This document shows, in pieces, positions 1 to 22,609 of a stretch of DNA of 58,544 nt. Source of the DNA: Jaapia argillacea MUCL 33604 (taxonomy: Eukaryota > Basidiomycota > Agaricomycetes > Jaapiales > Jaapiaceae); NCBI GenBank assembly GCA_000697665.1, contig KL197741.1, forward strand, positions 348,006 through 406,549, read 5' to 3'. Position 1 is the first letter of the stretch; each line of letters starts with the position of its first letter. The translations under genes and the position numbers were made by a program. Below the pieces are notes generated by a model. It was not told the DNA's origin and ran no database searches. It saw nothing but the letters and a program-made list of their open reading frames with translations.

Positions 1-2072
1 GCCCACTCATCATTGGTGAGGACATGATGGCAAGTGTGTCGGGACTTCCTGTGTTGTGAACGTATTCGGACTCGTATATTTCATTCGTATTTGTTTGTAT
101 TTTCACCGGACTTATTCGTTTTCGTATCGTTTCCCTTGTCTACGATACTTAGTACGATTTCTCTTTATCTTATCTCATCTTATCTTATCTCAGATCCTGT
201 ATAACATCTTATCTTATCTTATCTTATCCTGTACAGCCTCATACAGCCTTGTACAGCCCCACCATTGTTCTTAGTTTCATTGTTCTTCTTCATTGTACTT
301 CATCCATTGTCTCAAACCTTAACTCGTTCGCCATTGTATAAGTACATTGTCTCACTCGTTATTGTTCGTCGTACATTGTTCAACTCTTCATTGTTCCTGT
401 AGTATATAAGGACACCTAGCTACTTTGTATTCGGTAGCTTGTCCACTTGAACAATACAGCGCTTTAGTTGTATCCTTCAACCGGTTCGCTCCCTCATCGT
501 CATCCTCTACTCTTCAACATCGTAGCCTGAGTACTAGTTAGCAAGAAGTATCCAAACGACTTACAAGCCTTATTCGCTACCTTACGCTAACGCTAAAGGC
601 GCTCATAACATCCTGAGGACACTGAGAAATTTTTGGATTATGGGATTGAATGGGGCTGAACTGGATATTTGTAAAGCGGGGAGGATATCGGTGAATAGTA
701 GTCGGCGCCATTCGAAGATCCGGTCACGGATGCAAATGCAAACTGGAGTGTCATAATACCTATACCCCCATCTTTCAACCCATATCCATAGGATTACACT
801 GATGGGGGTTTGAAGATCACACTGGGATCCATCCAGGTCACAGATCTCATAGTATGGGGGATCTAGGGTGCACGAAAACGATGAGATGGTGGGCCGCCAC
901 ACTGGGGGAAAACGATTGATAAATATATCGTAATGTGGGTCTGGCTGATGAATCTCTTGATTTTGGATCATCCACTCAAGCATCGGAAGATACTCCGAGA
1001 CAGGGTGATCAAAGTTAAAGACGATTCCGTTGACAAGATTAACCCGGGCTTGATCATCAAGGCTGGACCACATCGCGGTGGAGCGTGATGCAAGAAGCAA
1101 AATGATTTGCCAGACGCGTGGTTGATTTTGGCGAACCTTTGGATCTAAAACCCATGGCAAGGGGCCATATGGAAGCCCTTTACGGCTGATTGCATTGAAT
1201 ACATCAGTTTTTGAATGGGCAGGTCACCTGTCAAATGCACATACACAGACCAGCACACATCACAACGAATCCACCCATCTTTGCCAGATGGAAAGAAAAG
1301 CTTGTCGTTACACAGCGAGATGAGGATGCGGTAGTCATGATAATTGTATAGCCAGGAGAAGAGGGATGCCCAAGATGATGCCGAGCTATCCCAGAACGAA
1401 CATGTGTGACCACTATCCGGAAGCATTTCGACGAATCCAGTGAGTGGTTGGATCGGGAGTCCCAGGGAGGGCAACAAATTGCCTGACGCGCAAATCCACT
1501 TGTTGATGCAGCTGGAAAAGTGGAATTTGAAGTGGAAGAGGTTATCGCACTGGGTAACAAAGGGTGAAATAAGAATCAGCCACGCAATGGCTGACGCTCG
1601 TGTCGGGGTATCGGCCTTCCAAATCCTCTCCTTCACCGAGGCAGGCCATAAATCGGAAACTCCACGGCCTGCCAGGCGATCGACACGACGTCTGTACTCC
1701 TTCTGAGCTTCTTTCCAGTCGTAATCTTCGAGCCGCCATCCATCCCCATCCCTCCGCAGGTTACTCCGAAGCCACTCCTCATCTCCGGGTCGCCAAAGAA
1801 TCCAGGTATCGGCAACCGAGCTGTGTCCTCGGATCATATTGTGCAAATGATGCCCTACTGCCCATATCCTCACGAAATTTTGACGGAGTGTATGGTAGAC
1901 GAATAGAAGTATGAGTGGGGGGTCTGAAGGATCGAAATTTGGGTCGGAAAGACACTTCAGGGGATCGTAGCTCGTATCGGCGGAGGAGTCTATTGCGATT
2001 CAACATCCAACAGTCAACTCGGAAGGAAAGTCGAGAGAAAGATGGATTCTCACCGAGAGTCGTGGATGACAT
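1..2072 (-). pseudogene. Kinase-linked family gene, copy 1, disrupted by an LTR
   Basis: Runs right to left and continues past the left window edge. Exon 1 is 2072-2054 (ATG at 2072), exon 2 is 1989-1245 and exon 3 starts at 1185. The introns are 64 and 59 bp with GT..AG ends and the phases agree. The protein matches the N-terminal region of the intact copies at 10566-13231 and 19333-22609, for example WRPGDEEWLRSNLR and DLWPASVKERIWKADTPTRA, then PWVLDPKVRQN in exon 3. At 610 the exon is interrupted by a solo LTR, and its frame meets a stop at 603-605 inside the LTR. Bases 1-51 resume the homology to copy 3. The kinase half, if still present, lies outside the window. Function of the N-terminal region is unknown; I do not recognise the fold. 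Confidence 0.8.
52..610 (+). mobile_element. Solo LTR of an LTR retrotransposon
   Basis: The 559-bp segment starts TGTTGTGAACG and ends GCTCATAACA, so it has TG..CA ends. It is flanked by a 5-bp target duplication TCCTG at 47-51 and 611-615. The flanks are continuous with each other when compared with kinase-family copy 3 near 21147. A TATA-like box (TATATAAGG) lies near 403-411, which sets the plus orientation. The left half has short direct repeats (CTTATCT, 170-225). No internal retroelement genes are present. The Ty3/gypsy family is a guess from the terminal bases. Confidence 0.88.
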
Positions 2073-2212
2073 GGTTCTCTGCTGGAATGAAGTTCAATCG
2101 TGAGTGTAAGTCAGGGCGAGCGGTGAGGGAAGGGCAGAGGTCGAAGCGTAGGTCGTCGCAGAGGGTGAGAGGGAAGATTGCTGTGTGGGAAGTGCCTGGC
2201 ACCTGCACTGAT

Positions 2213-2269
2213 CCACGAGGTAATTAGACACTGGGCGAAGCGCCCAAGCGCCTATCCATGACCTCGTGG
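2213..2269. promoter_or_regulatory. Nested hairpin upstream of kinase-family copy 1
   Basis: An inner inverted repeat GGGCG-AAG-CGCCC (2233-2245) sits inside an outer one, CCACGAGGT (2213-2221) and ACCTCGTGG (2261-2269). The inner stem starts about 160 bp upstream of the ATG at 2072. The same element recurs about 150-160 bp upstream of copies 3 and 4. A promoter role is inferred from conserved position only. Confidence 0.5.
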
Positions 2270-2279
2270 GTAGCGGCAC

Positions 2280-5200
2280 TTCCAGCGCCTAGCTCAAATT
2301 CTTCGTGATAGTTGGTGATGGTATCCTAACTGCGCATCCTCCGAAAGTATTTACACAATCTAAACTTAGATTACGGAGATCTGAACTGAGATGGGAGAAA
2401 ACTCTGAGACGGTCAGTGACGGGAGCGTGAAGAGATCGACAACAGATAACTTACCTGGATCGATTAAATGCCAGTCTTCCCATCTTCGGTCTATCTTTGG
2501 CGATAGCCTCCAAATTTCCTGGAGCTGACTTCGCTCTATACATTAACTTCTGCCCGGACTGGATATGGTTGGTAACAAGGATTAAATCCGTCCTCGTGAA
2601 GGTTGACATGGTCGGATGAGTGGATGGTACCCACCGTAGAGGTCCGGAGGTTAAAAAGCGAGGCCGGTGGGCATTGTTGACCCATATCGACGAAACGGAA
2701 ACCGAGAATGGGATAAAAAGTTTTAGAACATGGGATATATTTTCGATTGCAAGTAAATTTTGGAGCCCTTGCATATCGGAAGGTCCGGTAACGAGTTTCG
2801 TTTGTGACGCGATGAAGGGGCGAACGACGTTTGTATGCGGTGGGGAACGAGAACGAGAGGTGAATTAGTCAGGGGGTGTCTGTTGTTTTTCATTGCGTCA
2901 ACACCGACGATCTCAATCGGGCGGGCTGAAGTAAGCGGCAAAAGTAAAGTCAATGCGCGGAGAGAAGGAGATACGGGAATATAGACGTACGTACTTGATG
3001 TGTCGAGGGACCTCCGTCGAGACAAGTCCACTGTCATGACATTCTTTCGTCTGTAGGGTGAGCTCGCCGTAGACTTGAAGACCGATGCCGAAATGTGTTT
3101 CCGTTCCATTCCGCAGGGTGGATGGGAGAGGACTTTGAGATGGAGGTGAGAGATGAAGTTACGCTCGGTTAGCATTGGTGGCGAGAGCATGTTTGGATGG
3201 GGCAGATGGCAGAGAGTAGGAGTTCGGATTTCCGTTGATGGAACGTTCGGTTACGTGGGGGAGAAAATCCAGAACGGTTTGTGAGAGAAGAAAAGAAGGG
3301 TTTTGAGACAGAAGGGCTTGAGAGGGTCTAAAAGTATCGTTTCGGTGTCAACCAACCAGACATCATCACCAAACCAGACAAGGCACCTCTCCCAACAGCG
3401 CACCCCATTGTCAGGGCATGAGTTCAGCTCGCTGGCGATCATACGACCCCCGCAAATCGTACCTCTACTTCCCCACTTCGATCTGCCCAAAAACCTAGAA
3501 CTCAATCCGCTATCACCTACACCTCGATACCAGTCCCCGAACCTCGATCTGCTAATCCATGCTCCCATACTGTAACACCAAGCCTCAATGCCCACCTCAC
3601 ACTCGATCCTCGACACAAAACCCACGCCTCGGCCATGAACGCCCAGCACTTCGATCTTCGAACCCTCCACCTCAGGATTTATCATTCAAACGACCAACCC
3701 AATCCTACAACCCGACCTTCTCGTCTCGTTCCTCCACTCATGAAGCTTGAAGGATGGACAAGCGGGAGTTGCGAGATGGTATCGCGTTCGAGGGTTGGGG
3801 GGTTAGGACTGTTGTTTCCGAGCCTCCGCTGAGAGCGAGGTGGAATTTGTGAATGTGGAAAGTGGGAGGGGTCTGACTACGATATGAGGGTAAAATCGGG
3901 CGTTGTAAATGATGAGGTGATGGTGTGAAGGTTTGGTTTTGGATTGAACGGGGTGGTCGGGGTTTGACGCAGGAAGGACCGATGCGAGTTTGGGTGCATA
4001 GTTTGTTTGGATGAGAGGCTGATAGGATTCAGGGTGAGGAGCTGAGAGGCATCTTCGAAGTGTTGAAATGAGACCAGGGGATGAGCGGCTCACTGGAAGT
4101 GGCAGTGTTTGCGAATCGCTGCGTTTGGTTTCAACACAATAATGTCAAAGCCAGAGTACTTGATCGTCGCAATATGACTGACCTTGTCCAATGTTCAACT
4201 TATGACACGTTGCATACCGCAGCGACTTCGCCTCGTATCCGAGGACCTTGACAAGTCGTAGATATCACCTCGCTAGTTTCACCTCCTCCCGGTCCACTTT
4301 GCCTAAGAGGGAAACATTCGTGGCCAGGATAAAATGGGCTTGAATCGTCCCTACGAGAATATGGACGAACAATGGTAGTGAACATTTGGAATTTGGCAGT
4401 TGAGTGACTCCGGGTCGATTTGTATTCAGAAGGAGGGTGCAAAGTGTCGGCGCGTAAAAGAGAAACGCTCCACGACTTCACTGTCGTCTTCACGAGGTCA
4501 GTGAACGACCTTCAAGACTCGGGATGGGAGGAGATCGGGGCATGGACAACACGACATTACATCACGGATGAACGTCGGATTGTCGAGATGTCTTTATCTT
4601 TCCTCCTCTGTCGTCTGTTTTCTCGGTTTAGTTGCAACACTCTGGGGTCGCAGGACAGGCGCCGTTTCCCATCATCCTGGTGCAAATTCTCTGCCTGTGA
4701 TTGGCCATTGCGATTCTCTGCTTCCCAACAAAGCACTCTCCAATCACATGTGACGCTCCAAACCCCACTGCGCCGACCATACGACATCCAGAATCCAGAT
4801 ACTATAGCTGGTTCTGAGATCCACGGATCGGTATGTCATGTGAACCTCAACGTTATATTTTCCCCAAAGTGCCGTGTCTTCCGCAAGCTGCCCGTTCTTG
4901 GGACTCAAGCGAGTTCCATTGGAATCTCGTTCTGAAAGGCTGCCAGGCTAGAGCCGCCTCCTCTTCGAATCATCTCAACAATATATCGTCCCGAGATTCG
5001 CGCAACAGATCGACACAAGTTCTGTGGGGCACAACTCCATTCTTTCGATTCACAACTTCCGCTCTCGTCTGAGCTAATTGGCAGAGATTTCGAGATGGGA
5101 AGAGGATCCCGAGGGAGTTATGGATGGATGGAGTGGGCTAGGTCGCGCTTGGTCTGTTTTCAGTGGGTACGATACTCGTATATCTGGCAAACTGGCATTG

Positions 5201-8200
5201 GGACCACTCGTATGTCCCTTTTCCTCCTCTGTTAATCAGATTCGTACCGATTGAGCTGTCATTTTCAATTGGACCAGTATTTCGAGTATCCATCCATGTT
5301 CTCCATCCAATGTCTCTTTAAATTTCCAATCGCGTAACCATCATTCCCCTTGTCCAAAATCGACTCGTGTCATCCTACTCGATCTCTGATGGCGAAATCA
5401 GCCCCCCGATGTCGAAGTCTTCCTATTCCGGATCCCTCGCGGCCTCGATGTCAGTCAATTTTCGATAGAAGCCCTAACCACCGCTCACTTCACGCAAGGA
5501 ATATCCATCCTTCACTTCATCGCCTGTTTCTCCGTTCATGTTGCCACGTATCCTTCAAGTTCCGTCTGCATCATCGTCCACCTATCAAACAAATCTGACC
5601 CACATACTGCCCTCGGACTGGAGAGGCCAGAGTACTCGTGCTTCAGAGTGAAATAGCGCTGGCCATTGTTGGGGAGTCGAGTCGAGTCGGTAGTAGAGGA
5701 GAAGGGTCTTGAGCAGAAGAAACTATCTGTGATTGGCTCATTCGGGCATTGTTTTAGTTTGCCACGAGATACAGACCTTGAGGAGTGGCTGGATGTACGG
5801 GAAGAACAAGCCGGTTCCCGTCACCCCCCCGCCAGCCAAATTGCAGCATTCCCTCTGGTCAGCTCACAGCATATCCCTCCATTCAACCTTCCTCTCCCGA
5901 GTTCCCAACACTGCGTATTCCTCCCCTCACATTTCCGCACTTCTCACTGGTCGTACCACCGCCTGTCCCTTCAACCGTTCCATCACATGCTCACGTTCCT
6001 CCCTCCACATCCCCGTATATCCTTCCACTCATACTCCAGGATTTCTTTCACACAACTGCTCTCGCTCGGTTTACATCACCGAATACTGTCCCATCGTTCG
6101 CATCGCCATATATCCTTTCGTCAATATCGCCCCATTTCCACCTTTCAAATTGTCGCATATCTTTCATTCAATCCTCATACTCGCCTTGCGCTAGTTCGAG
6201 ATTGGAAACGCTAGTCGAGAGTATGGGTTTGGATAAACCTTGGGGGTTCCAGCCGAGTGTCCCTCTGTTCACATCGGCGCAAGGATGATCTCGCACTGCG
6301 CTGATCATGAGGTCTGGAAGGATAGTGGGCGGGTCGAGAGTTCGGTTCTGTTGAGGGAATGGGAAAGAGTCTTGGGTTGGGAAATGATCTGTTATCGAGA
6401 CTCCTCGGCAGTCGTCGAGAACCCAATGGGAAATTTGGTTGTCTACGAGTGGCAGGAAGGGGCGGGGGAGAGGGGCTGGCTTTTCCGACTCTATCCTACC
6501 GTTCGCACCACTCTGTCGACACCACCGCATATACTTCCGCTCGCACCGGCATACATCCCTTCGCTCACGTTACCGCATATCTATCGATCTTGGAATCGGT
6601 TCACGGTCTCGAGAACGAGAAGGTTGGACGACAGGGTTTGTGTAGTGGATTTGTGCCGGTCCTTACCTCAAGGATTCGAGTTGAGGAGGGAGAAGGGAGA
6701 GGACTTGGGACATGTGTTGGTAGAGTCTCGTCCGCCTCCTAGCTTGGTGAGAGGGATGGAGCTTTAGGGGTAGCAGGGTGGGTGTGGGGGATGGGTGCTG
6801 ACGCTCCCATATGCTTGGGATAGCTCCCTCACATATCCCTCTTTTCACATCACCCATTCCCGGTATTTGATTCACCACATATCCTCCGTTCGCGACGTCG
6901 CACGTCCCTCAGTTGACATCACCACGTATGACTCTGTCGAAGAATTCCCTCCACCCGGTTCCATTTCTTCATTCCATTGGATCTCTTACATTCGGACGCT
7001 GCGTATCCCTGCATTCACCTCGCTGCATATCTCACTGGCAAACGCCACCACATATCCCGGTGTTCTCACCGTCGCAATTTCCTTCAAGTTGGGGTTCTCG
7101 TTGTCGTATATCTCTCCATTCGCAGCCCCGCATCTGAACCCGAGGATGCATGAGAGTTTGGGTAAATGATTTGTGCTTTGGACTTACCAACCTTGGAGTA
7201 CGTCCCTTTCCCTCTCTATCTATCAGATGTCGAACTCACCGAAATCTCGTCTTCAGGCGGATTGTCACATCACATTCTCGACTCCCTAACCCGTTCACCT
7301 CGTACTCGATCCTTGATTCTCGATACAGATCACACATCTTGATCCTGTATGCCCAACACCTCAACATTTCGAACCCCTACTTCGCGCTCAATTCATCAAA
7401 CCCCAGCTCAATCTTCTCGTCTCGTTTCCCTCCACTCGTGAAGGAAGAATGGGAGGGTGTTATGCAATGGTACCGCAGTCCAAGTTTTTGGGCGTTACAC
7501 TGTCATATTCGACAAGAGCGGTTGAGTGTGGTGTCTTGGTGTTGACTTGAGTGCTGTATATGATGGGGCGCAGGCGTGCAGTGTGGCGGAGGTTGGGCTT
7601 TGGGTGGGATGGGTTGATCGGTGTTTGGGTGGGGTGAATTTGAGTTTCTGGATGGCTCTGATAAGGACCTGATATGAATTAGGGTGAGGGGCGTATTCGA
7701 CTGTTTGAACTGTGAAGGGACGGAGTAACCAACTCGAAGTCAACCACTGCATAGGGTTTCACTAAATTTGTCTTGCTCGACGAATATCCGACTACATCCA
7801 AGTCTGGCCTCCGCGAACTCAACGACAAGCCATGGCAAATCACGTTACTTATGTCGTCAAACCAACCCCATTCTCCTCTGTCTGAGGGTCGTGCGGACGG
7901 CCCTTCCTTCTGAAATGCTGGACCGTTCATCTGTCCAATAACCCGCCATACCCTCTCTTAGCTAGGATTTACCTCACACGTGGCCCTAGCCCCTCCGACG
8001 TCGATGAGAAACTAATCCGATCCAATATTTTCTCTTTTGTCTGGTCCTCGTTGAATTCATCTGTTTCGAGAGGAAACATACAGAGAACCGGGACGAGGCA
8101 AACAACTCCGCCGACGTGGAAGTTGTCCTTAGTGGAGAACGTGTGACATGAGGAGTTCCTTGAGATACTGCCATGTCAAAATGGCCTTGGCTACTCCTCG

Positions 8201-8900
8201 GTGGAATGGAGAGGGGGAGATATAAGGCGCAGAAGAGTTCGGTTGGAAATCAACGAGATTTGACGATCTTCAAGAACAGAATCAGCAGACAGAATCATAA
8301 TGAGGAGGACCTGGAGAGATTGACAAATCGACTTGGAAGTTGCCAGCCAGTAGTGACTAGCGTCTCAGTGCTAGCGCATCAAACAGCGCAATTGCAGGTA
8401 TCTTGTCTATGGCGCCTAACGTTGATCCTGCTGTCACTGGCCGACTTTTGACAGGTTCGTAGTTTGGACTTGTATCGGTACGTCTTGATTCGCAGCGACC
8501 TCCGCATATAACTGTCAGACCTTGCTCATAACCACACCAAATCCTTGATTTTCAGCCCTCAACATTCAACGTCAACCACAACCTCGCCGTCCGACTTTAG
8601 CCCTGCGAACCCCGAACGCACGGCGCTGACCATTCCAAAATCACTCGACAAAAGGCCACCGCCTCTGCCAGCGAAATCTTTGCCTCGACCGACATCTCCA
8701 AATCATTCTCTCAGACCTGCTCTCCCCCTCCTCGCTCCTCGCTCCTCGCTCCCTGGCCCTCTCGCTCCGAGACCGTCACGTCCATGATCTATGGGTTGTC
8801 CCGTTACTCGGAAAGAAGAGGGTGAAGTCTCGGGCGTTGGCTTTCCGCCGTCGTGGAATTGGAGATCGGGTGTATGAAATAATTTCTCTCCAAGTTAGTA
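2280..8900. repeat. Degenerate subtelomeric repeat unit, copy 1
   Basis: Non-coding stretch upstream of kinase copy 1. It aligns by eye with 14608-18960 and 22860-31100. Shared landmarks include the track around 4140-4340 (CGCAGCGACTTCGCCTCGTA at 4219) also seen at 16190-16310 and 28377-28500, and a segment at 7975-8110 resembling 30980-31100. It is the most diverged of the copies. Open frames here are short, not conserved between copies, and mostly lack splice logic, so I call no gene. Intron-like GTACGTCCCTT...CAG strings recur in it. Confidence 0.6.
5860..7140. repeat. Degenerate minisatellite, about 27-bp spacing
   Basis: Variants of CGCATATCCCTCCGTTC recur many times, for example near 5868, 6010, 6157, 6526, 6578, 6877, 7000, 7027, 7056 and 7105. 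Where units are adjacent (6526 to 6578, 7000 to 7056) the spacing is about 24-28 bp. A similar cluster lies at 18715-18870. The three forward frames all stay open for long stretches because the motif is poor in stops, which explains the overlapping open frames here. Confidence 0.45.
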
Positions 8901-10565
8901 CGTAACAACCCTTTCTATTACTTGCAGTGCACTTGCTGAACGTTCTGTTTCGTCACTATTTCGCTCATTGCATCCGTCCACTGACGTTCGTGTCTGCACC
9001 CACCGACCTATCACGTCGAATCTCCCAGTGTTGCCTCCTTTTTCTGGGTCACAGAGTGTTTGAATCTATGACATCTCCGCCCTCGCTCATCGCACAGACC
9101 TCGTCATCCGGGTAGCACTATTCATGCCCATCACGGCCCAATGGAAGAATACTCCCAGGATGTAGTGCGTTGGATCTTGGGGGCGATTGCGATGGTGGGG
9201 TGGGAGGCAGGAACGCCAACCTCAGGGCCTGTGCTGCGATGGATAGGGTATTGGACTGGAGGTCGGAGCTCAGGATTCGACCTCGAGAGTTCGGATTTTT
9301 TGTCCAAAGGGTGGGCTGGCATCCTCGGTTTGCAGTACGTCCATAAGTTCCTGCTCGTCTCACATATCTTGATATGAACACACCGTACAGAATTTTCTTC
9401 GCGGATCACTCCATCATCCCGCATATACCCACTTCAGCCTTCCACAACGTCATGTTATTACTCCGGGAGCCATTTCAATCCGATATTCCTCGTCCACCAA
9501 AGACAGATGGTACCCATATTCCAATACCCACGTTTCCCACTTCTTCTCACACCCACCGGCGCCAGAAGCGATCGTCATCCACCGACATGGCGAAATCTCG
9601 TCCGCCATCAGTGTATGCCACGTTGCTTCTGCATGTCAAGGAGATGTTACGCTCCTGTTATGCGGTATGGAGATCACTACCACAGCCCTGTTTCAGCGCC
9701 GCACGGAGAGAATGGGAGGTGGCGATAGGTTAGGAGACGGATATCTCTGAGTTACGAAGGTAGAACGTCGGCAGTGGATGTCTTTCGTATGGAAGGCATT
9801 TGCACGTCTCCGATGATCAAGCTCAATCTCAGCCTGCCCTCTCCGAGCATCCTAGTACCTTCGCTGCCGAAGTGTCAGGCACCGCTTTGCCCCAGTCCTG
9901 GTCAGTCATCCATTCGAACCCTTGGTTTCGTTTCGTGTCTCTAACTCTCTGGATTACACTCAGGGTGTCGGAGCTCGACTTTGGGTCTTCTCCCCTTGAG
10001 CAGCTCCTTCACAAACCAGAAATTCGACCCTGATCGCACTATGCTTACAGGCAACAGTCGGCTCTTCAATTTTCGTCCATTCCAAGCTTCCCATCGCACT
10101 GGATTTGTTGAGACTTGCGCTCTACCCGTCGTTTGGATCCACCCTTACCTCACGTAATCCCCCATGGACATGGGATTGTGTATCCTCTCGGAATCGACAT
10201 TCGACATCCGATGGTGAGCTCTTGCGATTCTCTTGGAAGTACCAATAACTCATCGGGGTGTTTCAAGTCGATGGTCACCGTGAGGATCCAGGAATAGATA
10301 TATACGAGTTGGACTACAGTGGCGGTATGAAAGGACAATGTATCAAAGTACCAAATGATGCAGCTGCGACAATTTGGAGTCCAATATATAGCCGCCGTCG
10401 TCGATGTTACACCCACCAATCAAGTTGAGTGATTGAGACGTCATACCAAAAGAACTACCCTGAGCTTGTTGTAAAATCGAGCACTCTCGCTCCCTCCGCA
10501 ACGCGATGTTCCACCACCATCAGGTATATCCAAACTTCTGATGTCTGAACTCGTTGCAGTATACT
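8901..10565. other. Gene-poor spacer
   Basis: Between repeat copy 1 and the end of kinase copy 2. Only short open frames are present, with no family motifs and no convincing splice chain. I see nothing identifiable. Confidence 0.5.
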
Positions 10566-13231
10566 TCAAAATTCCCGAGGGCGATGTCGAGGTCGAGGAT
10601 CAGCACTGGATGGACTGTCGTCCCGATGGCGCTTCAACCTTCCTGGAGGGTGTGACGGAGAATCCGCCTCGTGTTCAGCCGAGTCGCTGTGCTCGTTATC
10701 GCTTGGGTTGACCTGTTCGTCATCGCTCGAGTCGTCCTGTTGCGTGGACGAATCGCTTTCGAGTACGTTGGCGATAAATGTCGGTCCACTGGACTGCTGA
10801 CTCGGGACTGATTTAATAGTCAGACGAAACTCCTCCAGGATACCCTTCGCTGTGGGACGAGTGTCCGGTGTCGTGCGCCAGCACTTTTCCGCTATGTTCC
10901 GCATCTTGGGTGGCAGCTCTTTCCCAGGAGGTGTTTGTGGATGCTCCCCGGCCAGGATCCTGTGTACAACAGCCCCCTCAGATGTGAAATTATAGAATGG
11001 TAGCAATCCTGTATGGAGCTAAACAGGTGTTATCATGAGCTTCCCAACGGCAAGAGTCTGGGAGAAGGGGTCGACAAACCTCAATACAGACACATCCATA
11101 TGCAAAGATGTCGGTGGCGCACGTTCGGCGTGTCCCAACCATCCCAAAGCTTTCGGGGAGCAACAGCTCAGGTGCCATCCATCTCGTCGATCCAGCCTCA
11201 CCCCTGGTGGCCGTGTACGCTCCCTTAGTCGCCTCGGCAAACACGGCAAGGCCAAAGTCGGCGAGTTGGCAATGGCCTCGATCATTCATAAGAATATTCG
11301 CCTGGAGGTGGTCAGCTAACAAGTATGTCATGATAATAAAGCTGTACTTACTCCTCGAAGATCTCCGTGGACAACATTTTCACCGTGCAAATAGGCAAGA
11401 CCTGATGCCACTTGATTAAGCTGGACATGAGGTTAGTATTCGTCGACGAGAAGTTCGGTACCAACTCAACAATCAGATCAATCTCATTTGCTGTGAGATT
11501 TTTTTCCGAACAATATTCCACGACGGTGCCACAATCCATGTAGGGTGATACCATGCAGATGTAGGGAGGTTCGAAGAGTTTGTCGTCGACACCCAGACAA
11601 GGAAGAACATATCTATGCCATAGCCCTCTCCAGATGAGGGCCTCACGACACAGCATCTATGGAATCCACATGAAATGTAAGTACCAAAAGTGCTCGATGA
11701 CGAAAACTTCTCACCTGCTTTATGTCCTCTCGTTTGCGCAACGGAATAATATGAAGACGTAACCGCTTTATAGCAACTTTTCTCCCTGCCCAGAATCCGG
11801 CAAAAATATCGGCAAACCCACCGCCAGCAACGAGTCCCCCACCCTTCAGCGATACACCTCGAAGAAAGATGGAGGTAGGCAGAAGTTCAGATTCCTTGGA
11901 GAGCTTTACAACTAGACGATGGACGGTAGATTTGTAGGTGGATTGATCTTGTTGAGCAATTGTTTCAGCAGCATCCGCTCCATCTCTTGCCCATGAGCGC
12001 CGGGGGCGATCCAGGAACTGAAAGAACATTGGTATGAGGAAAGCACAGAAGAGGACGAGAGACTCACGCGCTGCAATAGATCCAGAAGCCACTGCTGGTG
12101 GTCATTTCTGTCCTCGCGATGTTGTGTAATCCAATTTGAATCACAGAGCGAATCTACTACATCCTGGAGCATGGACAGCATCTCGGGTTTGCCCTCATCA
12201 ACCAGTCCGTCAGGATCTGCACTTTGGCGCAGCATACTGTATTCGATATCTCGAACTTCATGATGGGTATGATGATTATATCCAGAGTCTTGGCTGAGAT
12301 CTACTGGTCCAGTGAGGGTCGGGGACAGCTGGATCCTTGGTAGCTGGGATAGAGACGGAGAGTTGTAGGTAATCGTCTCTCCAGTTCCGTCGTAGACACG
12401 CCTGCTCTCAGGGGCCAATATCTTCCGAGGGCTGGAAGGCCCATGACGGCTAATCATCCAATTCAGTCTAGGAGCGTTTTAAAGGAACAATTGTACTCAC
12501 ATAGATCGGCACACTTTACAAGGATCATAGACCGAGCCTAATGGAAGGAACTCTTCGTTGTCACACAGCGCGACGAGGACGTGGTAGTCGTGATAATTAT
12601 ATAGCCAGGAGAATAGGGTGGCCCAAGATGAGGCTGAGCGATGCCAGAACGAGCATGTGTGGTCACTATCGGGAAGCGTTTCGACGAATTCAGTGAAGGG
12701 CTGGATCGGAAGTACCAGGGAGTCCAACAAATTGCCTGACGCCTGGATCCACATGTTGATGCAGTAGGAAAAGTCGGATCTGAAGCGTTTCCGGTGGGTA
12801 ACAAAGGGTGAAATAAGAATCAGCCACGCAATGGCTGACGCTCGTGTGGGCGCATCGGCTTTCCAAATCCTCCCCTTCACTGAGGCAGGCCATAAATCAG
12901 GAACTCCACCGCCTGCCAGGCGATCGACACGTCGTCTGTACCCCTTCCGAGCCTCTTCACAGTCGGCATGATCGGGCAGCCAACCATCCCCATCCTTCCG
13001 CAGGTTACTCCGAAGCCACTCCTCATCTCCAGGTCGCCAAAGAGTCCATATATCGGCAACAGAGTCGTGACCTTGGATCATATTGCCCAAGCTCCGTGCA
13101 GCATACTCTCTGTGATCTGCATAGATCGAATGGTAGACGAATAGAAGTGTGACTGGGAGGTCTGAAGCTTCGAAAATCGGTTTGGAAAGGCACTCCAGGG
13201 GATCGTAGCTCGCATCAGCGGAGTGATCCAT
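10566..13231 (-). CDS. Protein kinase (TKL-like) with uncharacterised N-terminal region, copy 2
   Basis: Seven coding exons: 13231-12501, 12449-12068, 12017-11715, 11656-11471, 11420-11352, 11301-11080, 11018-10566, with introns of 50-61 bp. They sum to 2,346 nt (781 residues). Residues 1 to about 240 are the family's N-terminal region, with no fold I recognise. About 184 codons present in copy 3's middle exon are missing here. The kinase domain begins near residue 400: glycine loop GGGFADIF, VAIK lysine, alpha-C glutamate in REALIW, catalytic loop HGDLRGANIL, DFG, then RWMAPELL. All catalytic residues are present, so activity is likely. The C-terminal tail is acidic and Ser/Pro-rich. The start is unusual: the older first exon (ATG at 13310, 13310-13292) survives, but the acceptor has changed from TAG to TGG. 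This creates an ATG at 13231 that is in frame. Substrate and pathway are unknown. Confidence 0.82.
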
Positions 13232-13291: not shown

Positions 13292-13310
13292 CTAGAGTCG
13301 TGGAGGACAT
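13292..13310 (-). other. Relic first exon of kinase copy 2
   Basis: The 19-nt sequence encodes MSSTTL plus one base and keeps its GTGAGA donor, matching exon 1 of copies 1, 3 and 4. The acceptor that should follow, just before 13231, reads TGG instead of TAG, so normal splicing appears lost. Confidence 0.6.
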
Positions 13311-13523
13311 GATTCGAAGTTGGAACGAAGTTCAATCGTGAGTTTAAGCGAGGGCGAGCGTTGATGGAAGAGAAGAGGCTGAAAGCCAGGTCGTTGCAGT
13401 GGATGGCATCCGGCGGGAACACCCGCCCATAAGCGCTCACAACAAGCGCCCAAGCGCCTATACACGGAAATCTTACATCACTGTCTATACAATCGAAGCA
13501 GGGACTATAGAGGTGAAGGCAAA

Positions 13524-14599
13524 GGCTCTGGTGCAGTGTCTGGAATTTGAAATGGAAAATTCGGCGAAATCAAAAACTCTCGTGAGTGTGATAGGAGCAC
13601 CGAGGTGGGTAGGTCTCAGAAGCCTTATGGTGGAGTGGTTAGAGTGTGATGTGACTTGAGTTGTTTTGTCCTGAGACCGGGGTTCAATCCCTGATGTGAG
13701 TGTACTTTTGTTTTTGCCTCTTTTTCGGTGTGGTTCCTCCCGTGGACCAACAGCCCTGTACAATATTTTCGTAAATAGTATGGGGCATGATCTTATTTTC
13801 TCAGTCCCTTTCATTCACATCAATCAAGTAATGCCATGCATTTTGTCGAAATGACCTCAGAGGTGAAAAATGTCAGGCAGTTGACCCTCCACAGCACTAT
13901 GCCTCTCCATATTTCTGCTTTGTAATCCAATTACCATCTATGTGGTCAAAGGGCAGCATCTTGGCCCTGTACTATCACGGGCGAGGCACAAAATACCAAA
14001 ATACCCAAGATTCAAGACACCACTTTTTGATGCCCTGGTGGCCCTTCATCATCAATACAACCGAAAAAACAATTCACCTCCAAGGGTTCAATTGGCTTGA
14101 CACAACCCAGAAACTCCCACCCAGAGCCCGAAGGAAACCCAGGCCTACCACACACAATCTTCAGAATGTCCTGGACACCATGACTGTTATTGGATCTCTT
14201 TGAAAAACCTTTCCCCATCTCAAATTAGAATATTCCTTTGAGATCCATCACTTTTCTCAAGTTTCTAACCGCTGGTAGAAAATCCAAGGTACCATTATCC
14301 CACCCCAAAGGCCAAAAAAGCGATTTTCTGCTGTAGAGAATGTCAACTTCAAAGTGAAACCTATCTCATATTGTTTCCCCAGCCTTCATTATATTTTCAC
14401 GATTTATCTGGATTTTATTGAGCATCGGGGGAGGCCATGCAAGCGTTACAGGAGTGCTTGAGGGTGAGCAGCCACAGCGTGGGAACTTCGTCCATAAAAG
14501 TACTAAAAATCCATAAAAGTACTAAGAGTCCAAATCCGTCTTGCATAGTACTTATTGGGACAATTTCAAATTCCAGACACCACTCCAGAGCCAACTTCC
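13524..14599. mobile_element. Non-autonomous element with imperfect terminal inverted repeats
   Basis: The 1,076-bp segment is present in copy 2 but absent at the matching place in copy 3 (about 22915) and copy 4 (about 57180). It is flanked by the 8-bp duplication AAGGCAAA (13516-13523 and 14600-14607). Left end GGCTCTGG...GTCTGGAATTTGAAAT is repeated inverted near 14560-14592. The right end has about 7 extra bases beyond the shared repeat. An 8-bp duplication suits hAT-type elements, but the termini are not diagnostic. No transposase frame is present. A tRNA-like stretch lies inside. Confidence 0.65.
13624..13700 (+). repeat. tRNA-like (SINE-type) sequence
   Basis: A box A-like string TGGTGGAGTGGTTAGAG (about 13628-13644) and a box B-like GGTTCAATCC (13681-13690) occur about 40 bp apart, as in a tRNA promoter. 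I cannot fold a complete acceptor stem or anticodon arm, so this is probably a tRNA-derived SINE head rather than a tRNA gene. It lies within the 1,076-bp insertion. Confidence 0.5.
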
Positions 14600-14607
14600 A
14601 AGGCAAA

Positions 14608-17600
14608 TGAGAGAAATGCCTGAGAAAGACAATTCGTAACGAGATCGTGAGGAGATCGATGAAGGATGACGTACTTTCAGTCGCCCCCTGGATAGTCTCT
14701 CCAGGCAACTTCACTCTAAACATCAACTCCCCCCCGTAATGCAGAACGCCATCATGGTCGAGTAGTATTATTAAATTGGAAGATCGGCGTGTTAGGATGA
14801 GTGGATGATAACCACCGCCGAAGTCGAGAGAGTTAAGAGCGCGGCTGGTGGGTATCATTGAGGCGAGTCGAATCGATAGAAACCTAGAACTTGATCAAAA
14901 GAGTCGAAGGATATTGGAGTCTCTGCTTATCAGAAGGTCCGGTGATACACATTTTATGTGACGATATGTAGGAAACGGATATATTCTCATGCAGAGGATA
15001 TCAAGAGGTTAACTAGACGACTAGCCGGAGGGGGGTGTCTGCCATTCGAAACAGTGCTGACATCGGCATCCAAACGATCTCGAGCGGACAGGCTGAAGAA
15101 AGAGACGAAGTATTAGGAATGGGTGGAGAGAAAGGGATACGGGAATATAGACGGATGTACGTCATGTATCAAGCGGTATGGACCTCCATCGAGACAAGTC
15201 AACCGTCACGATATCCTTTCGTTTGCAGGTTGCCGCAGCAAGGGAACATCGCAGCGTGTCGTGAATAACGATGCGCAGGTGTGCTCCCGTTCGATTTGGC
15301 GGGGTGGGATGTAAGAGGACTTTGAGAGGGAGGCGAGGGGATGAAGTTAGGCTCGTGCCACCTTTGTAGTGAGAGAGGTTGGGTGAGGGAGTCGGCAGAG
15401 ATTGGGAGTTCGGGTTTCCGTTGATTGAAGGTTCGGTTACGTGGGGGAGAGGCGCCAGAAGGGTATGAGGAGAAGAGATGAGGAGTTTTGTGCGGAGAAG
15501 GGCCTGAGAGACTCAAAGGTATGGTCTCGGGGGCAACCAACCAGACATCGTCACCAAACCAGACACTGCACCTCTACCAACAGCGCAGCCCATTGTTGGG
15601 GCATGAGCTCAGCTCGCTCCCAATCATACGACGCCCCGCAAATCGTACCTCTACTTCCTCACTTTGATTTGCCCAAAAACCGAGAACTCGAACTCCCTCC
15701 ACCTCAGGGTCTATCATTAAAACCACCAACCCTATCCCACAACTCGACCTTCTCGTCTCGCTCCCCCTACTCGTGAAGGATGGACAAATGGGAGTTGCGA
15801 GACGATATGGCGTTCGAGGTTTGGGGTTCTAGGACTATCATGTCCGACCGACCGCTGAGAACAAGTCGGAATGTGGGAATGCGGAAGCTGGGAGGCGTTT
15901 GAGCATGATGCATGATGTATCGATAGGACTTGAGTGTTGTGAATGATGAGGTGCAGGTGTGATGCGGGATGAAGGTTTGGCTTTGGGTTTATCGGTTGTT
16001 TGGATGCGAAGCTGATATGATTTAAGGGAGGTGGATAGTGTTTTCGAGATTTTGACGGGAGAAATAGAGACAAGGAAACGGGCGGCAAAGTCGAAGTGAA
16101 CCGCTGCCCTGGATTTCAATAGAATTACAGTCAAACCAGGAGTACTTGATCGTGGTACTATAACTGACCTTGTCCCATGGTATCATACGCAGCGGTTTCG
16201 CTCGCGTCTGAGTACTGTGCAAGTCGTACATCCTCCGAGTCGCCGGCTTCGTCCCATCCGTCTACGAGCAGAAGATTCGTGGTCAGGATAAAATGTGCTT
16301 GAATACTACCTAAGAGAATGTGGACGAACAGGGTTAATGAGCACTTGATCGTTGAGTGACATTAAGTCGATATTCCGACTCGGAAGACGGCAGTGCAGTG
16401 GATTGACGAGAATTTGAGTCAGTGTTCGAGCACTGCACAAGATAACTCGTATCGCATCCTTCCGACAAGGCGATCTCTTCGCTGGTGGCGTCCGAGTCAG
16501 CCTTCCGAGGTCAGCGAAGGACTTGGCGGACGGCGAGCTAATTGACGGAGATCGGAACATGAACAATGTGACATCGTTGCACAGATCCGCTTCGGGATTG
16601 TTGAGATGTCTCTGTCTTTCCACCTGTCTTCTGTTTTCTTGCTGCGACACCGCGGGGTCGTAGGACAGGCGTTGTCGTCCTACTCACTGTGCTTCAATCA
16701 CATGGCGATACTCCAACGTAGCCTTCAAAATCCTCTGTCGCTCGCATCGTGATCAACTCCATCGATCAAGCTCCCAGCGGCCGGAACGCCTACGTATACA
16801 AGTCCCAGGAAACAGATGGTGGTAGACGGCTATGGGGAGTTCGGAGATTGTCTCGGTATGTCGTGTCTCGCATTGACCTGTGCACCCTAACCGACCCCAA
16901 AGCCCCGTGTCTCAGTCCTAACCTCAACCACCTCATATTCAAAGCTTGTGGCCCAACTCGAACAACTTCCCGTTGCAGTTGACTGAATCTTGCTCATCAA
17001 GCTACCAGACTAGAAGCGTCGGCTCTTCGAACCGTCCAATATACGTTGGTATCAAAATCCACGCGACGGTTCGACACGAACTCCTTACGCCGCGCCCCCC
17101 ATCCTCACATGGTTCACAATCGGCGTTCTTATCTCCGCTCAATCGCGGAGGCCTCGAGGTGGAGAGGATGGGATGCTCTGGCAGAGGGAGGACGACTATG
17201 GCGGATTAGGGTTGTGTTTGATCTCCATTCGCTGGGCGAGAGGTTGTTGGGTTGGAATATAGGTACTGTGCATTTTCGACCAACCCGGCGGTCACAGGTC
17301 ACAGCCGTTTTTCGCTGACCCCGGAAATGATTTTTTCTCGATTTATCGGGATTTTGGGGATTTGTCGGAAAATTAAAAAAGTCACGTGCCCGCCGGGTTG
17401 GTCGAAAATGTACAGTATTAGGAGTATGAAGTGGCTGGGTCAAGAGTGCTGGAACATTTGTCACGCTGGGTATGGGGTCTTTGCTCACGAACCGTAAGTC
17501 CCTTTCTCTCCATCCATTAGATCTTGTACCTATCTAACTGAAGATTTCACGTAGTGCATGTATCACTCCTCGACTCCCAACCCAATGTACACGCCTGATT

Positions 17601-18960
17601 CCCAATCAGATGACGCACACACGCTCTCGATTCCCTGCATCCAACCTTGACGTGCAACCTCTAACTCGAAGACGACTCCGAACCGTCAGTCCATCACGTA
17701 CCACAACCCTCGCCCCTCATTTTCGATCTCGCTCGGTTTGCTATCGAAGCACTCCATTCGCATCAATACATGTTTCCCATCGACCTCTGAACATATCACT
17801 CAGATCGTCCACCACAGATCCACTGCTCAACTACCTTCCATCTTCGTAATCAAGGTTCCCATCTGGACTCGATCGCCGAGATCTCGAATTGGATGGGGGA
17901 TGCCGAGGGAGGTATGGAGTCGAGTCGAGTAATAGCGCGTTTGGCCTTCCTCAGTTAGCTGCTATGCGTCGGGGAGAAGCTGAGACGGATGGACGGATGG
18001 TGTGGGTTTGGTCTGGGCTTGATCGTTGTTCGTTGGGGATTATCCAGTGGGTGTGTGGCGGGCGTTGGGTTTTAGGATGCTGGGTGACTTCGTTGATGAT
18101 TTCATAACTCAACTTTGTATGTCCCCTCCTCGCTCTCTATACATCAAATTTTGTACCTATTGAAATGTCGTTTTCACTCAGATAGATCGTCGTGCCAGGG
18201 TCTCTCCAACGCTCCTCGTTCGCTACACCTGTCCCCGTTCCAATCGCTTCACCCAGAGTCGCTGTATGCCCTTCATCCAAACTCGTCACGAAACAACAAA
18301 TGGTTGACCTCCAAACCCTCGCGCGTCACGAATGGCCTGCCGTCCATTTCGATCTTAGCCGATTTCTCTATCGGAGAAGTATCCATGACTCAGGACAGGT
18401 AGCTCCCCGCCTATCCCATCACTCACACGACCGCGTGTCCCCCCATTTCGATCGCCGCCCATCCTTCATTCCCATCCCAACATATCTATCATCAAGGCTC
18501 TGATCCCAGCACCTCACTCGGACTGGATACGCGGGAGTTTTGGAGCTTTGGTGTGAAGTTGAGCTATGCTTATTGGGGATTCGAGTCGAGGAGGGAATCG
18601 GGGAATTTCCTGTGAATGATATATGCGACGATTTTTGTCGGGCATCCTTCCAAATGGGCGCGAGGTATTCGTCATTTGGGATAGTCAGGGTGGGTGGAGA
18701 AGGACGGGCGTGTTCCAGCATATCCATTTGTTCACTTCATCTCTGGTGAAACCACGACATTCCCCCCCCCGATCATTTCCCTGCTTACCCCTCCGTCCAC
18801 AGCGTCCTCTACCTCGACGTTTTCACTCCTGCATCCCCTCACCGCACATCCCTCCGCTCGCTTCGTCGCAGTTTTATTGTCAAAATCCTGTCCCGAACTG
18901 CGCGGCCTCAAGATCCAGGAGGATCAGTGATGGCTTGGATTTTGGGAGTGAAGTGGGTCG
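14608..18960. repeat. Subtelomeric repeat unit, copy 2
   Basis: Non-coding unit upstream of kinase copy 2. It is closely similar to 22930-26570 on the same strand and to 54720-57150 in inverse. For example, the stretch from 16740 to 16930 (around GATCAAGCTCCCAGCGGCC) recurs almost unchanged at 54880-55065 reversed. No open frame is conserved as a protein with sensible exons. Sub-repeats of the form ACGTCCCTT...CAGATTTCGTACC occur at 17500 and 18118. Confidence 0.65.
17264..17417. mobile_element. Short MITE with TA ends
   Basis: The 154-bp segment has near-perfect terminal inverted repeats of about 28 bp (core CATTTTCGACCAACCCGGCG) and is bounded by TA on both sides. The matching place in copy 3 (about 25795) and copy 4 (about 54565) lacks it. 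TA boundaries suit a Tc1/mariner-type non-autonomous element. It contains no coding sequence. Confidence 0.75.
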
Positions 18961-19332
18961 AGGAGAGGAGGGAATAAGGAGTGCGTGTCAGTTTCAAAGT
19001 AACTCATTGTGCACAGGGACCCCCGGATTTGCCGTTCATTGATGTTCCCGCGATTGGGGAGACAGAGGGTCTACTAAGAGAATATGCAATTGTTGCTCAG
19101 CAGCCCTTGAGAGGGAGACGCAAGCTCATGACACATGTTGTGTGACTGATAGGTTGCCGTGTATGCTATATTCATTCAAACTACCAGCAAATACAGAAAA
19201 TCTGGCGAAATTTAGTCTCTACTCATCCTTTGATCCCACTAAGATATTCCACAATACAAACGGTACAATGAGTCATCGACATGTTATCTCCCCTTTGTTT
19301 GGGTATGTAGCAGCCTGGGCAGTGCAGATACG
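18961..19332. other. Spacer downstream of kinase copy 3
   Basis: 372 bp between repeat copy 2 and the stop codon of kinase copy 3. It probably contains the 3' untranslated region of that gene. I see no feature in it. Confidence 0.4.
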
Positions 19333-22300
19333 TCAAGAGTCGAACCTCGCCCGCTTTGGGGGACCTGACTCGGATTCCGACACCTGGTCCTCTTCCTCCA
19401 ACGGGCGCTTGTTCAGATTGTCCCCGTCATTATCAGGCTCTCCCGCATCAGAGGACGAGGATGATGACTCGGGGTCACTGGCCGTATCTTCGCAAAGATG
19501 ACCAAAACTCTTCACGAGTTCCTGTGCTGTAGGACGGCTATGCAGTTCCAAACTCCAACATTTTTGTGCCAGGGCCAACACCCCACCCGGCATCACCTTC
19601 CTGGGAGGTGAGGATGGATGTTTCCCTGCCAGAACCATCTGGGGTATAGCTGCTTCGAAGCATATTTCATGGAATGGGACAGAACCTGTGTGAAGCTACA
19701 ATCACTGTCAATTGTGCACCCTCTATCATGTAATATTGTGACAAACCTCAAAACACACACATCCATATGCAAAGACATCAGATGGACAGGTCCGCCGGTA
19801 ATCAGTCAGCCCAAACTGTGGTGGGTACAACAGTTCAGGTGCCATCCACCTCATAGTGCCTGATGACGTTGTGGTTGTGAATGCACCCATGGTTGCCTCT
19901 GCAAATACAGCTAGGCCAAAATCAGCAAGCTGGGGATGTCCAACATGGTTTATGAGTATGTTTGCCTATGACAGGAAATTATCAGTACTATACCCAGATC
20001 ATCAAGTTATCCAATGACTCACTCCTCGGAGGTCTCCATGAACAATATTCTCATCATGAAGATACTCAAGTCCCTCAGCAACTTGTAACAGCTGTGTATG
20101 AAGTAAATCAGGAAAATGCCACATATAGTATTCCATGGTGGGGACTTAACAAGATGGGTGATTTCTGGGTGAGATAGTGTGTAGCAGATTGTATACTCCA
20201 ATATTGTTCCATTCTCCATGAATGGAGATACCAGGCATATACGAGGTGGACCAAAGAGCTCAATGTTGACTCCAAAACATGGCAGAATATACTTATGTGA
20301 TATTCCATGCCACACAACCACTTCTCTCTTCAGCCTCTGCTTCCAAAATCAAGTTAGAAAGTTATCACTGATCATGAGACAAATGAGGAAGGCTAACCCT
20401 GAGTGCATCAGACTGCTGAGACAGAGGAACTGCATGAAGGCGCAAACATTTGATAGCAACCTTTTTTTGCCCCCACCATCCACCATAAATATCTGCAAAG
20501 CCACCACCAGAAATCTGGATTTTCAGGTCAAGTTTGAGTGAATTCAAGTATAGGCTAGGAGGAAGGTCGCCTGATTTCTCTGACAATTTCACAATCAGAT
20601 GGTGAATTGATTTCCTGATCATAGACCAATCAGTCACAGGTATCCAATTCAATCCATTTGGCCAGGAGGAAAGCAGAGGATGGTCCATGTACTAGAGCAA
20701 AATTGATGTGAATGTGGTAGTCAGATCAGAGAGAATGTGAGAGAGACACCAGCTATCTGATGGTATAATATGGTAGAATTGAGTGGGATGAAAGACTCAC
20801 AGTCTGCAACAGGTTGAGAAGCCAGAGCACATCCTTCTCCCTTTCATGGTGAGTTGTCCGTGATGGATCAAAGAAAGAGTCCACCACACTCCAAAGTATG
20901 GACAGTGGTCCTGTCTGGGAGTGAGACAGAAACACGCCAAGAGGTTTGTCACTCATGCACAGCTTGCTATATTCGAGGTCTCGACATTCAGGGCAGATAT
21001 GTTGATTGTATGTGGCATCTCGGCTGTGATGTAGGTTCATGACTGGTAGCTCGATATTCTCCATTTCATAGAGAAGTGAGTAGCTGGCAGTCCACAATGC
21101 CCATCCACCACCGCTGAGAACATGGTGGCAAGTATGTCGGGATTTCCTGAGGGCTTCAAGAAAGTTGTGGATTAGGTGATTGTATGGGGTGGAACTGGAT
21201 ATTCGTAGCACAAGAAGGATATCGATGAATAGTAGACGGTGCCATTCGGAGATCTGGTCACAGGTGTTCACTGGAGAATGTGAACCATGCCACTTGCTCC
21301 AACTTTCAACCCACTTCCATATGACTGCACCGATAGCAGTTTGAAGGTCTCCCTGAGGTCCACCCAGGTTGTCCATGGTATGGATTGGGACACGAAGGGT
21401 GGATGACGATGATGAGATTGTGGGCCGCCACTCTGTGGGAAACCCGTTGACATAAGTGTCATATTGTGGATCTGGCTGATGAATCTCTTGGTTTTGGACG
21501 ACATACTCAATCTTGGGAAGATACTCCGAAAAGGTTGAGTCTGGGTTGTTAAACTCAAGGCAGATGCGGGAAACAACACCGTCACAGTCTCTGTCGCTGA
21601 GACTGGACCATCTATTATACTTTGGGGTGATGCGTGATGCAATAAGCAAAATAATTTGCCAGACAGGTGGTCGATTTTGGCGAACCTTTGGATCCAAAAC
21701 CCATGGCAAGGGGCCAGAGGGAAGCCCTTCACGGCTAACCACATTGAATACATCAGTCTTTTGAATGTGTGGGTTGGCTGTCAAATGCACTTACACCGAC
21801 CAGCATGCATCGCAAGGAATCCACCCGTCTTCATCCGATGGAAAAAAATCTTCGTCATCACACAGCGCGACGAGGATACGGTAGTCATGATAATTGTATA
21901 GCCAGGAGAAGAGGGTTGCCCAAGATGACGCTGAGCTAGTCCAGAACGAACATGAGTGACCACTATCTGGAAGGGTTGCGACGAATCCAGTAAGTGGTTG
22001 GATCGGGAGTCCCAGGGAGGCCAACAAATTGCCTGACGCGCGAACCCACTTGTCGATGCAGCTGGAAAAGCTGAACTCGAAGTGGAAGGACCTGTGGGTA
22101 ACAAAGGGCGAGATAAGAATCAACCACGCGATGGCTGACGCACGCGTCGGGGTATCGGCCTTCCAAATCCTCTCCTTCACCGAGGCAGGCCATAAATCGG
22201 GTACTCCACGGCCTGCCATGCGATTGACACGTCGTCTGTACCCCTCCCGAGCTTCCCGCCAGTCATAACCATCGAGCAGCCAACCATCCCCATCCCTCCG

Positions 22301-22609
22301 CAGATTACTACGAAGCCACTCCTCATCTCCGGGTCGCCAAAGACTCCAAATATCGGCAATGGAGTCGTGACCTTTGATCACATTGCTCAAGATCCGTTTA
22401 GCATACGCTCTGTGATCTGTACAGATTGTATGGTAGACGAATAGAATTATGACTGGGAGGTCTGAAGATTCAAAACTCGGTTTGGAAAGGCACTCCAGGG
22501 GATTGTAGCTCGCATCAGCGGAGTGATCTATTTTGATTCAACATTCAACATCAACTCAAAAGGAAAGTCGAGATGAAGACCGAGTCTCACCGAGAGTCGT
22601 GGAGGACAT
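19333..22609 (-). CDS. Protein kinase (TKL-like) with uncharacterised N-terminal region, copy 3
   Basis: Eight exons: 22609-22591, 22527-21795, 21734-20801, 20691-20398, 20336-20151, 20091-20023, 19965-19747, 19695-19333. All junctions are GT..AG, phases agree throughout, and the total is 2,817 nt (938 residues). It is the fullest family member. Residues 1 to about 560 form the uncharacterised region, rich in Trp. The kinase domain follows with GGGFADIYGG, VAIK, alpha-C glutamate in REVVVW, HGDLRGANIL, DFG and RWMAPELL. The tail is a run of Ser and Asp ending in a basic stretch (KRPL, PPKRARF) that could act as a nuclear signal. Exons 5 and 6 have the same lengths as in copy 2 (186 and 69 nt). 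The kinase half is more AT-rich and far more diverged from copy 2 than the N-terminal half. Biological role unknown. Confidence 0.85.

Follow-up and report, generated by a model that had tools for sequence, protein, structure and literature searches.

A conserved tandem module joined to TKL-type kinases and other outputs in the fungus Jaapia argillacea

The last 58.5 kb of a scaffold of the basidiomycete Jaapia argillacea MUCL 33604 (assembly GCA_000697665.1, contig KL197741.1, here C33, positions 348006–406549 of 406549; "the window", 58,544 nucleotides) carry several copies of a gene in which about 500 conserved residues precede a kinase of the TKL type. What is this N-terminal half, and what might it do for the kinase? 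An earlier reading of the first 22,609 nucleotides from the sequence alone (the original prediction) had described it as one Trp-rich region of a small kinase family and, in view of its repeated fusion to a kinase, proposed it as a candidate sensor or adaptor. We find that it consists of two tandem copies of one module, N1 and N2, and that the C-terminal parts joined to them, hereafter called outputs, have been exchanged at the boundary behind N2.

The copy c4 (Table 1) is the only one in the window that is fully intact as annotated. Its model was rebuilt by hand and then aligned to the other copies with a spliced-alignment script. The first 501 residues contain 25 tryptophans, against 5 in 270 residues of the kinase, so the region is indeed Trp-rich. 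Towards the ends of both N1 and N2 we could observe the same stretch, F......L..SGHTCH......W/LY......C..C. A profile comparison with hhalign, using ten rows for each module and including distant family members, aligned the two in register over 91 columns (probability 92.4, E 5e-7). In the controls, the reversed profile gave a probability of 0.3, and the best of 40 column shuffles reached a probability of 2.2 and an E of 0.022. With 15 N1 and 17 N2 rows the match rose to a probability of 95.3 and an E of 2e-8; the controls apply to the comparison with ten rows each. N1 and N2 are homologous repeats, and the idea of a single N-terminal domain is rejected by this test.

Nor is the family small. 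Module sequence is present at about 30 loci of the genome (43.7 Mb in 95 contigs, in which the kinase profile PF07714 matches 163 pieces). These comprise 12–14 loci of clan I, to which c4 belongs, and 17 distant loci, with 12–26% identity between the clans. An H-x-C motif is nevertheless kept across this distance in 15 of 15 N1 rows and in 16 of 17 N2 rows, together with two further cysteines in every N1 row and a C-x-x-C in every N2 row. In c4, the conserved residues are H190, C192, C222 and C238/C241 of N1 (numbered within the N1 stretch); N2 ends in HxC...CxxC, formed by H451, C453, C498 and C501 of the protein. Conservation of this kind is what a metal site would show, and on these residues each module probably binds a metal such as zinc.

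Neither module resembles a known domain. When c4 and the N-module rows were scanned with Pfam-A, N1 and N2 gave no match at a family cut-off, and a search of PDB sequences gave no significant match; in both cases the hits were at chance level. A Foldseek search with the weak AlphaFold model of N1 returned 51 matches at E <= 10, none of them at E <= 0.001. None of 59 pattern stretches was confirmed when the N1 alignment A1 was compared with bacterial and archaeal genome contigs, and none of 39 for the N2 alignment A2 against viral contigs. The placement of the region outside known domains is thereby borne out at the level of sequence, while the structural check proposed with it was limited by poor models.

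The output of c4 is a kinase that scores highly with PF00069 (E 5e-40) and PF07714 (E 2e-36). As predicted, it is of the TKL type with its catalytic residues in place, and the same is true for c2. Both copies keep the lysine of VAIK, the glutamate of helix C, DFG and APE, with HGD replacing HRD and DLR replacing DLK; in c4, these elements are VAIK 640, the E in REVVVW 664, HGDLRG 740, ADFGLA 759 and MAPEL 786. The nearest ordinary PDB relatives are MLK1, B-Raf, MLK4 and TNNI3K (E about 1e-22 to 2e-24). From rank 2 onward, MAP3K9/MLK1, B-Raf, A-Raf, MLK4, TNNI3K and erbB-4 are interspersed (best 60 of 77 matches at E <= 1e-20), and in the top row, 9p9u (named EGFR), no stretch passes by itself. 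Judged from its catalytic residues and its MLK/Raf relatives, the kinase core of c4 looks active. The protein ends in an acidic tail with a basic cluster that we take to be nuclear-signal-like. Its KRARFD element is absent from three related copies (L038, L039 and L045) and different in c2 and L041, and a nuclear site for the copies that carry it is a tentative suggestion.

In clan I, kinases of this kind (kinase A) are found on C33 and C9 in c4, c2, L038, L039, L041 and L045 (the Pfam run covered c4). They fall into two subtypes, A-I and A-II, which are 46–50% identical over about 325 residues. A-II remains in c4, L040 and L042, and the others are A-I. L039 and L045 are long forms with a frame open across N1, N2 and kinase, and L038 is open from N2 onward, its N1 falling in an assembly gap. 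L041, on C33, is a second short-form paralogue like c2; the script placed a stop in its intron 2, and the frame is open once this intron is read by eye. In L039 the catalytic loop and the APE motif are altered to HGDLQG and VPE. L043 is an open form that has no kinase but retains the basic tail and a small remnant of the C-lobe, and it is 47% identical to c4 in N1. Conversely, L063 on C13 has a kinase of the c4 kind without a module within the 3.2 kb fetched. Two further loci, L062 and L064, were considered as kinase-only donors of the c4 kinase and discarded, as they look like kinase fragments.

The distant loci lie on C83 (4), C71 (4), C72 (3), C67 (2), C8 (2), C27 and C60. Fifteen of the 17 match in both modules, the other two in N1 alone; a query with L043 gave weak matches on C72, C83 and C67 (21–30% identity). 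Each of the five distant loci that were fetched has adjacent N1-like and N2-like stretches; N1 contains a stop in L036 and L052, and in L053 the frame lacks the start of N1. Five of the 17 carry a different TKL-type kinase, kinase B: L036, L056/L065 (C72), L059 (C27), L060 (C8) and L067 (C60). It shares 23–40% identity with kinase A where exon pieces of L056 align over at least 40 residues, and three of the four scanned exon pieces of L056 and L059 match a Pfam kinase family. In L067 (C60:118001–121000, minus strand) there is an extra stretch between N2 and the kinase that appears ubiquitin-like by eye.

Ten of the 17 distant loci have another output, for which we coined the label "NWP" after the stretch PW-LP...GY..VNWP..V..P...KGI......LY.A conserved in L057, L058 and L061. 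The two NWP pieces scanned had no Pfam listing. A genome search found 11 NWP pieces, which belong to 10 loci. In nine of these, NWP follows N1-N2 on the 3' side at a distance of about 1 kb; in the tenth, on C71, an N1 piece directly precedes it. NWP was thus found in this genome solely behind N1-N2 or an N1 piece (10 of 10 loci). The module thus exists with and without a kinase, and the repeated fusion to kinases is confirmed. A single open frame runs from the end of N2 through the linker into the kinase N-lobe in L036 and L056, and the fusion is therefore independent of splice choices there. For the same reason it is unlikely, as far as the frames tell, that N1-N2 and the kinase are two transcripts.

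How did one module come to have several outputs? The answer is clearest in the pair c4/L039. Synonymous divergence (dS) is 0.37 in N1 and 0.38 in N2, rises to 0.95 just after N2 and reaches 2.47 in the kinase. In a sliding comparison, identity drops from about 0.79 for the stretch that starts at residue 481 to 0.55 for the one that starts at residue 496. A single breakpoint fits best at residue 500, within C498-P-E-C501, where it improves the log-likelihood by 92. Synonymous differences amount to 98 of 333 sites before residue 501 and 189 of 264 after it (Fisher p 6e-25), compared with 0.44 and 0.37 of synonymous sites before and after in L039/L045, a pair of the same type without exchange. 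Therefore, the N1-N2 of c4 is recent and its kinase belongs to an old lineage, the two having been paired through recombination or gene conversion of one half. A tree built over all clans, from 18 rows of N1+N2, requires four changes among three outputs. Constraint tests on this tree rejected a single clade for the NWP rows (approximately unbiased test, p-AU 2.7e-4) and for the kinase-B rows (2.4e-5). Output labels and tests were scripted together before the tree was seen; L043, which has no output, was left uncounted, and four of the 18 rows have fewer than half of the columns filled. Outputs have been exchanged at the boundary between N2 and the output, and this strengthens the proposal of a sensor or adaptor.

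The same exchange could be an accident. N1-N2 might serve fungus-specific TKL kinases as a constitutive part for scaffolding, dimerisation or autoinhibition, and duplication together with unequal crossing-over in clusters rich in repeats might have changed the outputs, with no sensing involved. Tandem and segmental duplication and the many broken copies fit such an origin. Moreover, A-I and A-II are related, and therefore homologous recombination between paralogues suffices for c4. It does not so readily account for a module that is also joined to NWP and to a distant kinase subfamily and that persists without a kinase in an open frame, or for outputs that are polyphyletic on the module tree. 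We regard this explanation as possible, although less probable than the sensor/adaptor reading.

The N-terminal half is under constraint. In N1 and in N2, non-synonymous changes are fewer than synonymous ones when c4 is compared with L039 and with L045 (four Fisher tests, p 8e-4 to 2e-7; for c4/L045, 1e-5 in N1 and 2e-7 in N2). The ratio of non-synonymous to synonymous rates (dN/dS) is 0.39–0.65 in the N-module against 0.18–0.39 in the kinase, and it is higher in the N-module in all 8 usable of 10 type A-I pairs (for example, 0.45 against 0.19 in c2/L045). Left out were c2/L038 and L041/L038, in which only the shortened N2 is comparable with that of L038; in these pairs, too, the N2 value lies above that of the kinase. 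Change therefore tends to be faster in the input half than in the output half, as would be expected of a varying input side. Together with the clusters, the many partial copies and the exchange of outputs, this is also what one might see in intracellular receptors for nonself or allorecognition that signal cell death or defence like fungal NLRs, for which domain reassortment is described in PMC4986451. However, Pfam finds no NACHT, NB-ARC or repeat domain in c4 and the N-module rows, and dN/dS in N1 is below 1 in intact pairs. Such a role seems improbable for this family.

The best explanation in our view, with a probability of about 0.5, is that N1-N2 is an intracellular sensor or adaptor module with interchangeable outputs. 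The N-terminal half would then be a new domain family, in which a largely helical module of some 250 residues occurs twice in tandem and ends each time in its putative metal site. It would serve as an input unit, joined within one gene to a TKL kinase of either of two subfamilies, to NWP or to a tail alone. By binding a ligand or partner inside the cell, N1-N2 may release or cluster the kinase, which would go on to phosphorylate targets, possibly in the nucleus in the case of the basic-tail copies. New pairings would arise by duplication and recombination at the border of N2 and output. We consider the chances of an input or sensing role to be even, and those of a control of kinase activity by N1-N2 to be of the same order; the helical fold and the direction of signalling are likewise inferences.

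Several observations weigh against this explanation. Close relatives alone gave an hhalign probability of 3.2 (E 0.014), the match between N1 and N2 being strong only with distant rows, and the alignment covers about 90–100 of some 250 columns. One N2 row, L066, is without the histidine of the site, and the final two cysteines of N1 are spaced differently in the two clans. The AlphaFold models are poor, with a mean predicted local distance difference test score (pLDDT) of 52.5 and a predicted template modelling score (pTM) of 0.54 for N1 (7 rows), and 41.9 and 0.28 for N2 (6 rows); they therefore lend a helical fold weak support, and at this quality they show no metal site. For two of the 17 distant loci, on C83 at 61 kb and on C8 at 296 kb, no output was found. 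In the pair c4/L042, of which L042 is broken, dN/dS is higher in the kinase (0.35 against 0.32 in N1). Many copies are broken, so that part of the family may be decaying. Finally, exchange is no proof of sensing.

Table 1. Positions in the window of the c4 gene, its parts and the other family copies
Feature	Position	Strand	Description
c4 gene	22609–19333	minus	intact; N1-N2-linker-TKL kinase-acidic/basic tail; 8 exons, 938 aa
c4 exons	22609–22591, 22527–21795, 21734–20801, 20691–20398, 20336–20151, 20091–20023, 19965–19747, 19695–19333	minus	all introns GT-AG, no stop
N1 module of c4	21797–22525	minus	243 residues from residue 8; alignments A1, A3 and 15-row alignment
N2 module of c4	20972–21733	minus	residues 252–505; alignments A2, A4; homologous to N1
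CPEC motif	20984–20995	minus	residues 498–501; exchange point between N-module and output half
TKL-group kinase domain of c4	19507–20526	minus	type A-II; residues 618–881, introns included
Acidic tail of c4	19333–19494	minus	basic cluster KRPLEEE...PPKRARFDS; similar tail in L043 and kinase fragments L062, L064
c2 copy	10566–13231	minus	N1, shortened N2, linker, type A-I kinase; frame open from ATG 13231
19-nt first-exon sequence of c2	13292–13310	minus	acceptor of next exon changed from AG to GG
c1 copy	611–2072	minus	exon 1, N1, 5' part of N2, then interrupted
Solo long terminal repeat (LTR) in c1	52–610		559 bp, TG...CA, 5-bp target duplication CAGGA
N2 continuation of c1 beyond LTR	1–51	minus	runs into N gap
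c5 copy	57478–58414	plus	exon 1, N1, start of N2; cut near contig end

The window holds four copies of the N-terminal region, c1, c2 and c4 within the first 22,609 nucleotides and c5 beyond them. The original prediction had these four sharing a 19-nt first exon and the exon phases. The exon is present in all four, reading ATGTC[C/A]TCCACGACT in c1, c2 and c4, while the aligned 19 nt of c5 code for MSSTTF. It is also found in the distant copy L043, by inspection, and in L045 on C9, and this short first exon is a real trait of the family. All four have the phase-2 intron after N1; the phase-1 intron after exon 1 is confined to c1, c4 and c5. Of the two kinase copies taken as intact, only c4 holds up in full. 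In c2 (locus 13310–10566), the acceptor of intron 1 has changed from AG to GG, and exon 1 therefore cannot be used as in the sister copies. The same change created the ATG at 13231 that opens the frame, and most of N2 is missing. Two of the four are clearly defective: N1 of c5 contains four in-frame stops, and c1 is interrupted by the LTR.

The sequence of this LTR occurs at no fewer than 40 places in the genome. A run of N adjoins the window on its left. On the other side of this gap, L044 (C33:336001–340000) carries the gene with the LTR insertion that is seen in window 1–610, and L044 and c1 are probably a single gene that the gap in the assembly divides. The LTR, and the many distant members on the small contigs C67, C71, C72 and C83, might suggest that N1-N2 genes hitch-hike with transposons on repeat-rich contigs and have little function for the host. 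This is very improbable, given that Pfam detects no transposase or reverse transcriptase domain in c4 and the pieces scanned, that intact copies are under purifying selection and that members also lie in the long contigs C8, C9 and C27.

Clan I has spread by tandem and segmental duplication. A protein search located it at about a dozen places on C33 (183–406 kb) and at one on C9, with 26 pieces matched in all, of which a weak one lies on C72. The count is given as 12–14 because L044 and c1 are probably one gene and the pieces of L042 lie on both strands. The repeated unit reaches several kb upstream of the kinase genes (blocks 14729–17172 and 23064–25702, which are 78–93% identical, and also 3209–3869). 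In it, a Pfam scan gave no match for the open reading frames (ORFs) 23505–24284 and 24547–25125; the ORF 55302–56009 resembles them by eye. The predicted duplication is therefore confirmed. Its subtelomeric character is not, since the clan extends over 183–406 kb of the 406.5-kb C33 and its copy on C9 lies at 294 kb of a 1365-kb contig. A DNA search, which warns of skipping simple repeats, found no exact (TTAGGG)4 in the assembly. TTAGGG-like stretches (GGTTAGGGTTGGGTTAGGG...) at 58400–58544 start inside N2 of c5 shortly before the contig end.

Other genes lie between and beside the kinase copies. A TPR protein (TPR_10), followed in an overlapping frame by a caspase-like CHAT domain, is located beside the kinase cluster at 31944–34893 (plus strand) and is possibly a single TPR-CHAT gene with an intron. 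An SKN1/KRE6 gene of beta-glucan synthesis (PF03935; 41020–42570, plus) and an amidase piece (36928–37479, minus) are ordinary genes between kinase copies. The SKN1/KRE6 gene, the short GT-AG introns and the abundance of kinase matches are all signs of a fungal and, by inference, agaricomycete genome.

How does the family compare with known systems? Likeness to MLK1, B-Raf and TNNI3K of the TKL group is confined to the kinase domain, which is nearest to TKL kinases and keeps their catalytic residues. Pkinase_fungal (PF17667, which we take to comprise the FunK1-type kinases) is likewise a fungal kinase family. It was tried for c4 and rejected at 17.0 bits, below its cut-off of 24.1, against 138 bits for PF00069. 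One parallel is FslK, a fungi-specific lineage near the tyrosine kinases (TK), whose mark is a phylogenetic place as sister group of the TKs and apart from the TKLs. PMC2838846 and PMC3937382 describe a TKL/FslK expansion in Agaricomycetes, including a TKL expansion in Laccaria. As in FslK, we see a large TKL/TK-like expansion in a fungus with a conserved catalytic core. By the motif rule in PMC3937382, c4 has DLRGAN in place of the TK 'AARN' and a proline in position four of what is GXR(L/M) in TKs, here GKHP; these features do not separate FslK from TKLs. The difference is that here about 500 conserved residues, a module not listed in Pfam, precede the kinase. PMC3937382 reports additional domains in only 16 of 241 members, which leaves open what the fungal TKL-like kinases, greatly expanded in mushrooms, respond to. 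N1-N2 offers a candidate sensor for such kinases, with defined borders for N1 and N2 and an end at the CxxC at residue 501.

The other parallel is with the fungal NLRs, likewise multi-copy and with domain exchange between input and output halves, as described in PMC4986451 and PMC9815663. Pfam found no NACHT, NB-ARC or WD/ANK/TPR repeat domain in c4 and the N-module rows, and here the input is N-terminal and the output C-terminal. The usual NLR order is the reverse. The likeness concerns a possible way of working, not membership. By analogy, N1-N2 might found an undescribed class of fungal intracellular receptors, with a tandem HxC/Cys-pair module in place of a nucleotide-binding domain and outputs recombined at a fixed boundary. 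This is a speculative and rather unlikely proposal; if the module does act as a receptor, its architecture would be independent of that of NLRs. Literature searches, which were limited and had no name for the module to go by, returned no title or abstract describing an N-terminal tandem module with exchangeable outputs. Lineage-specific signalling kinases are already known, and what is new here is the input domain.

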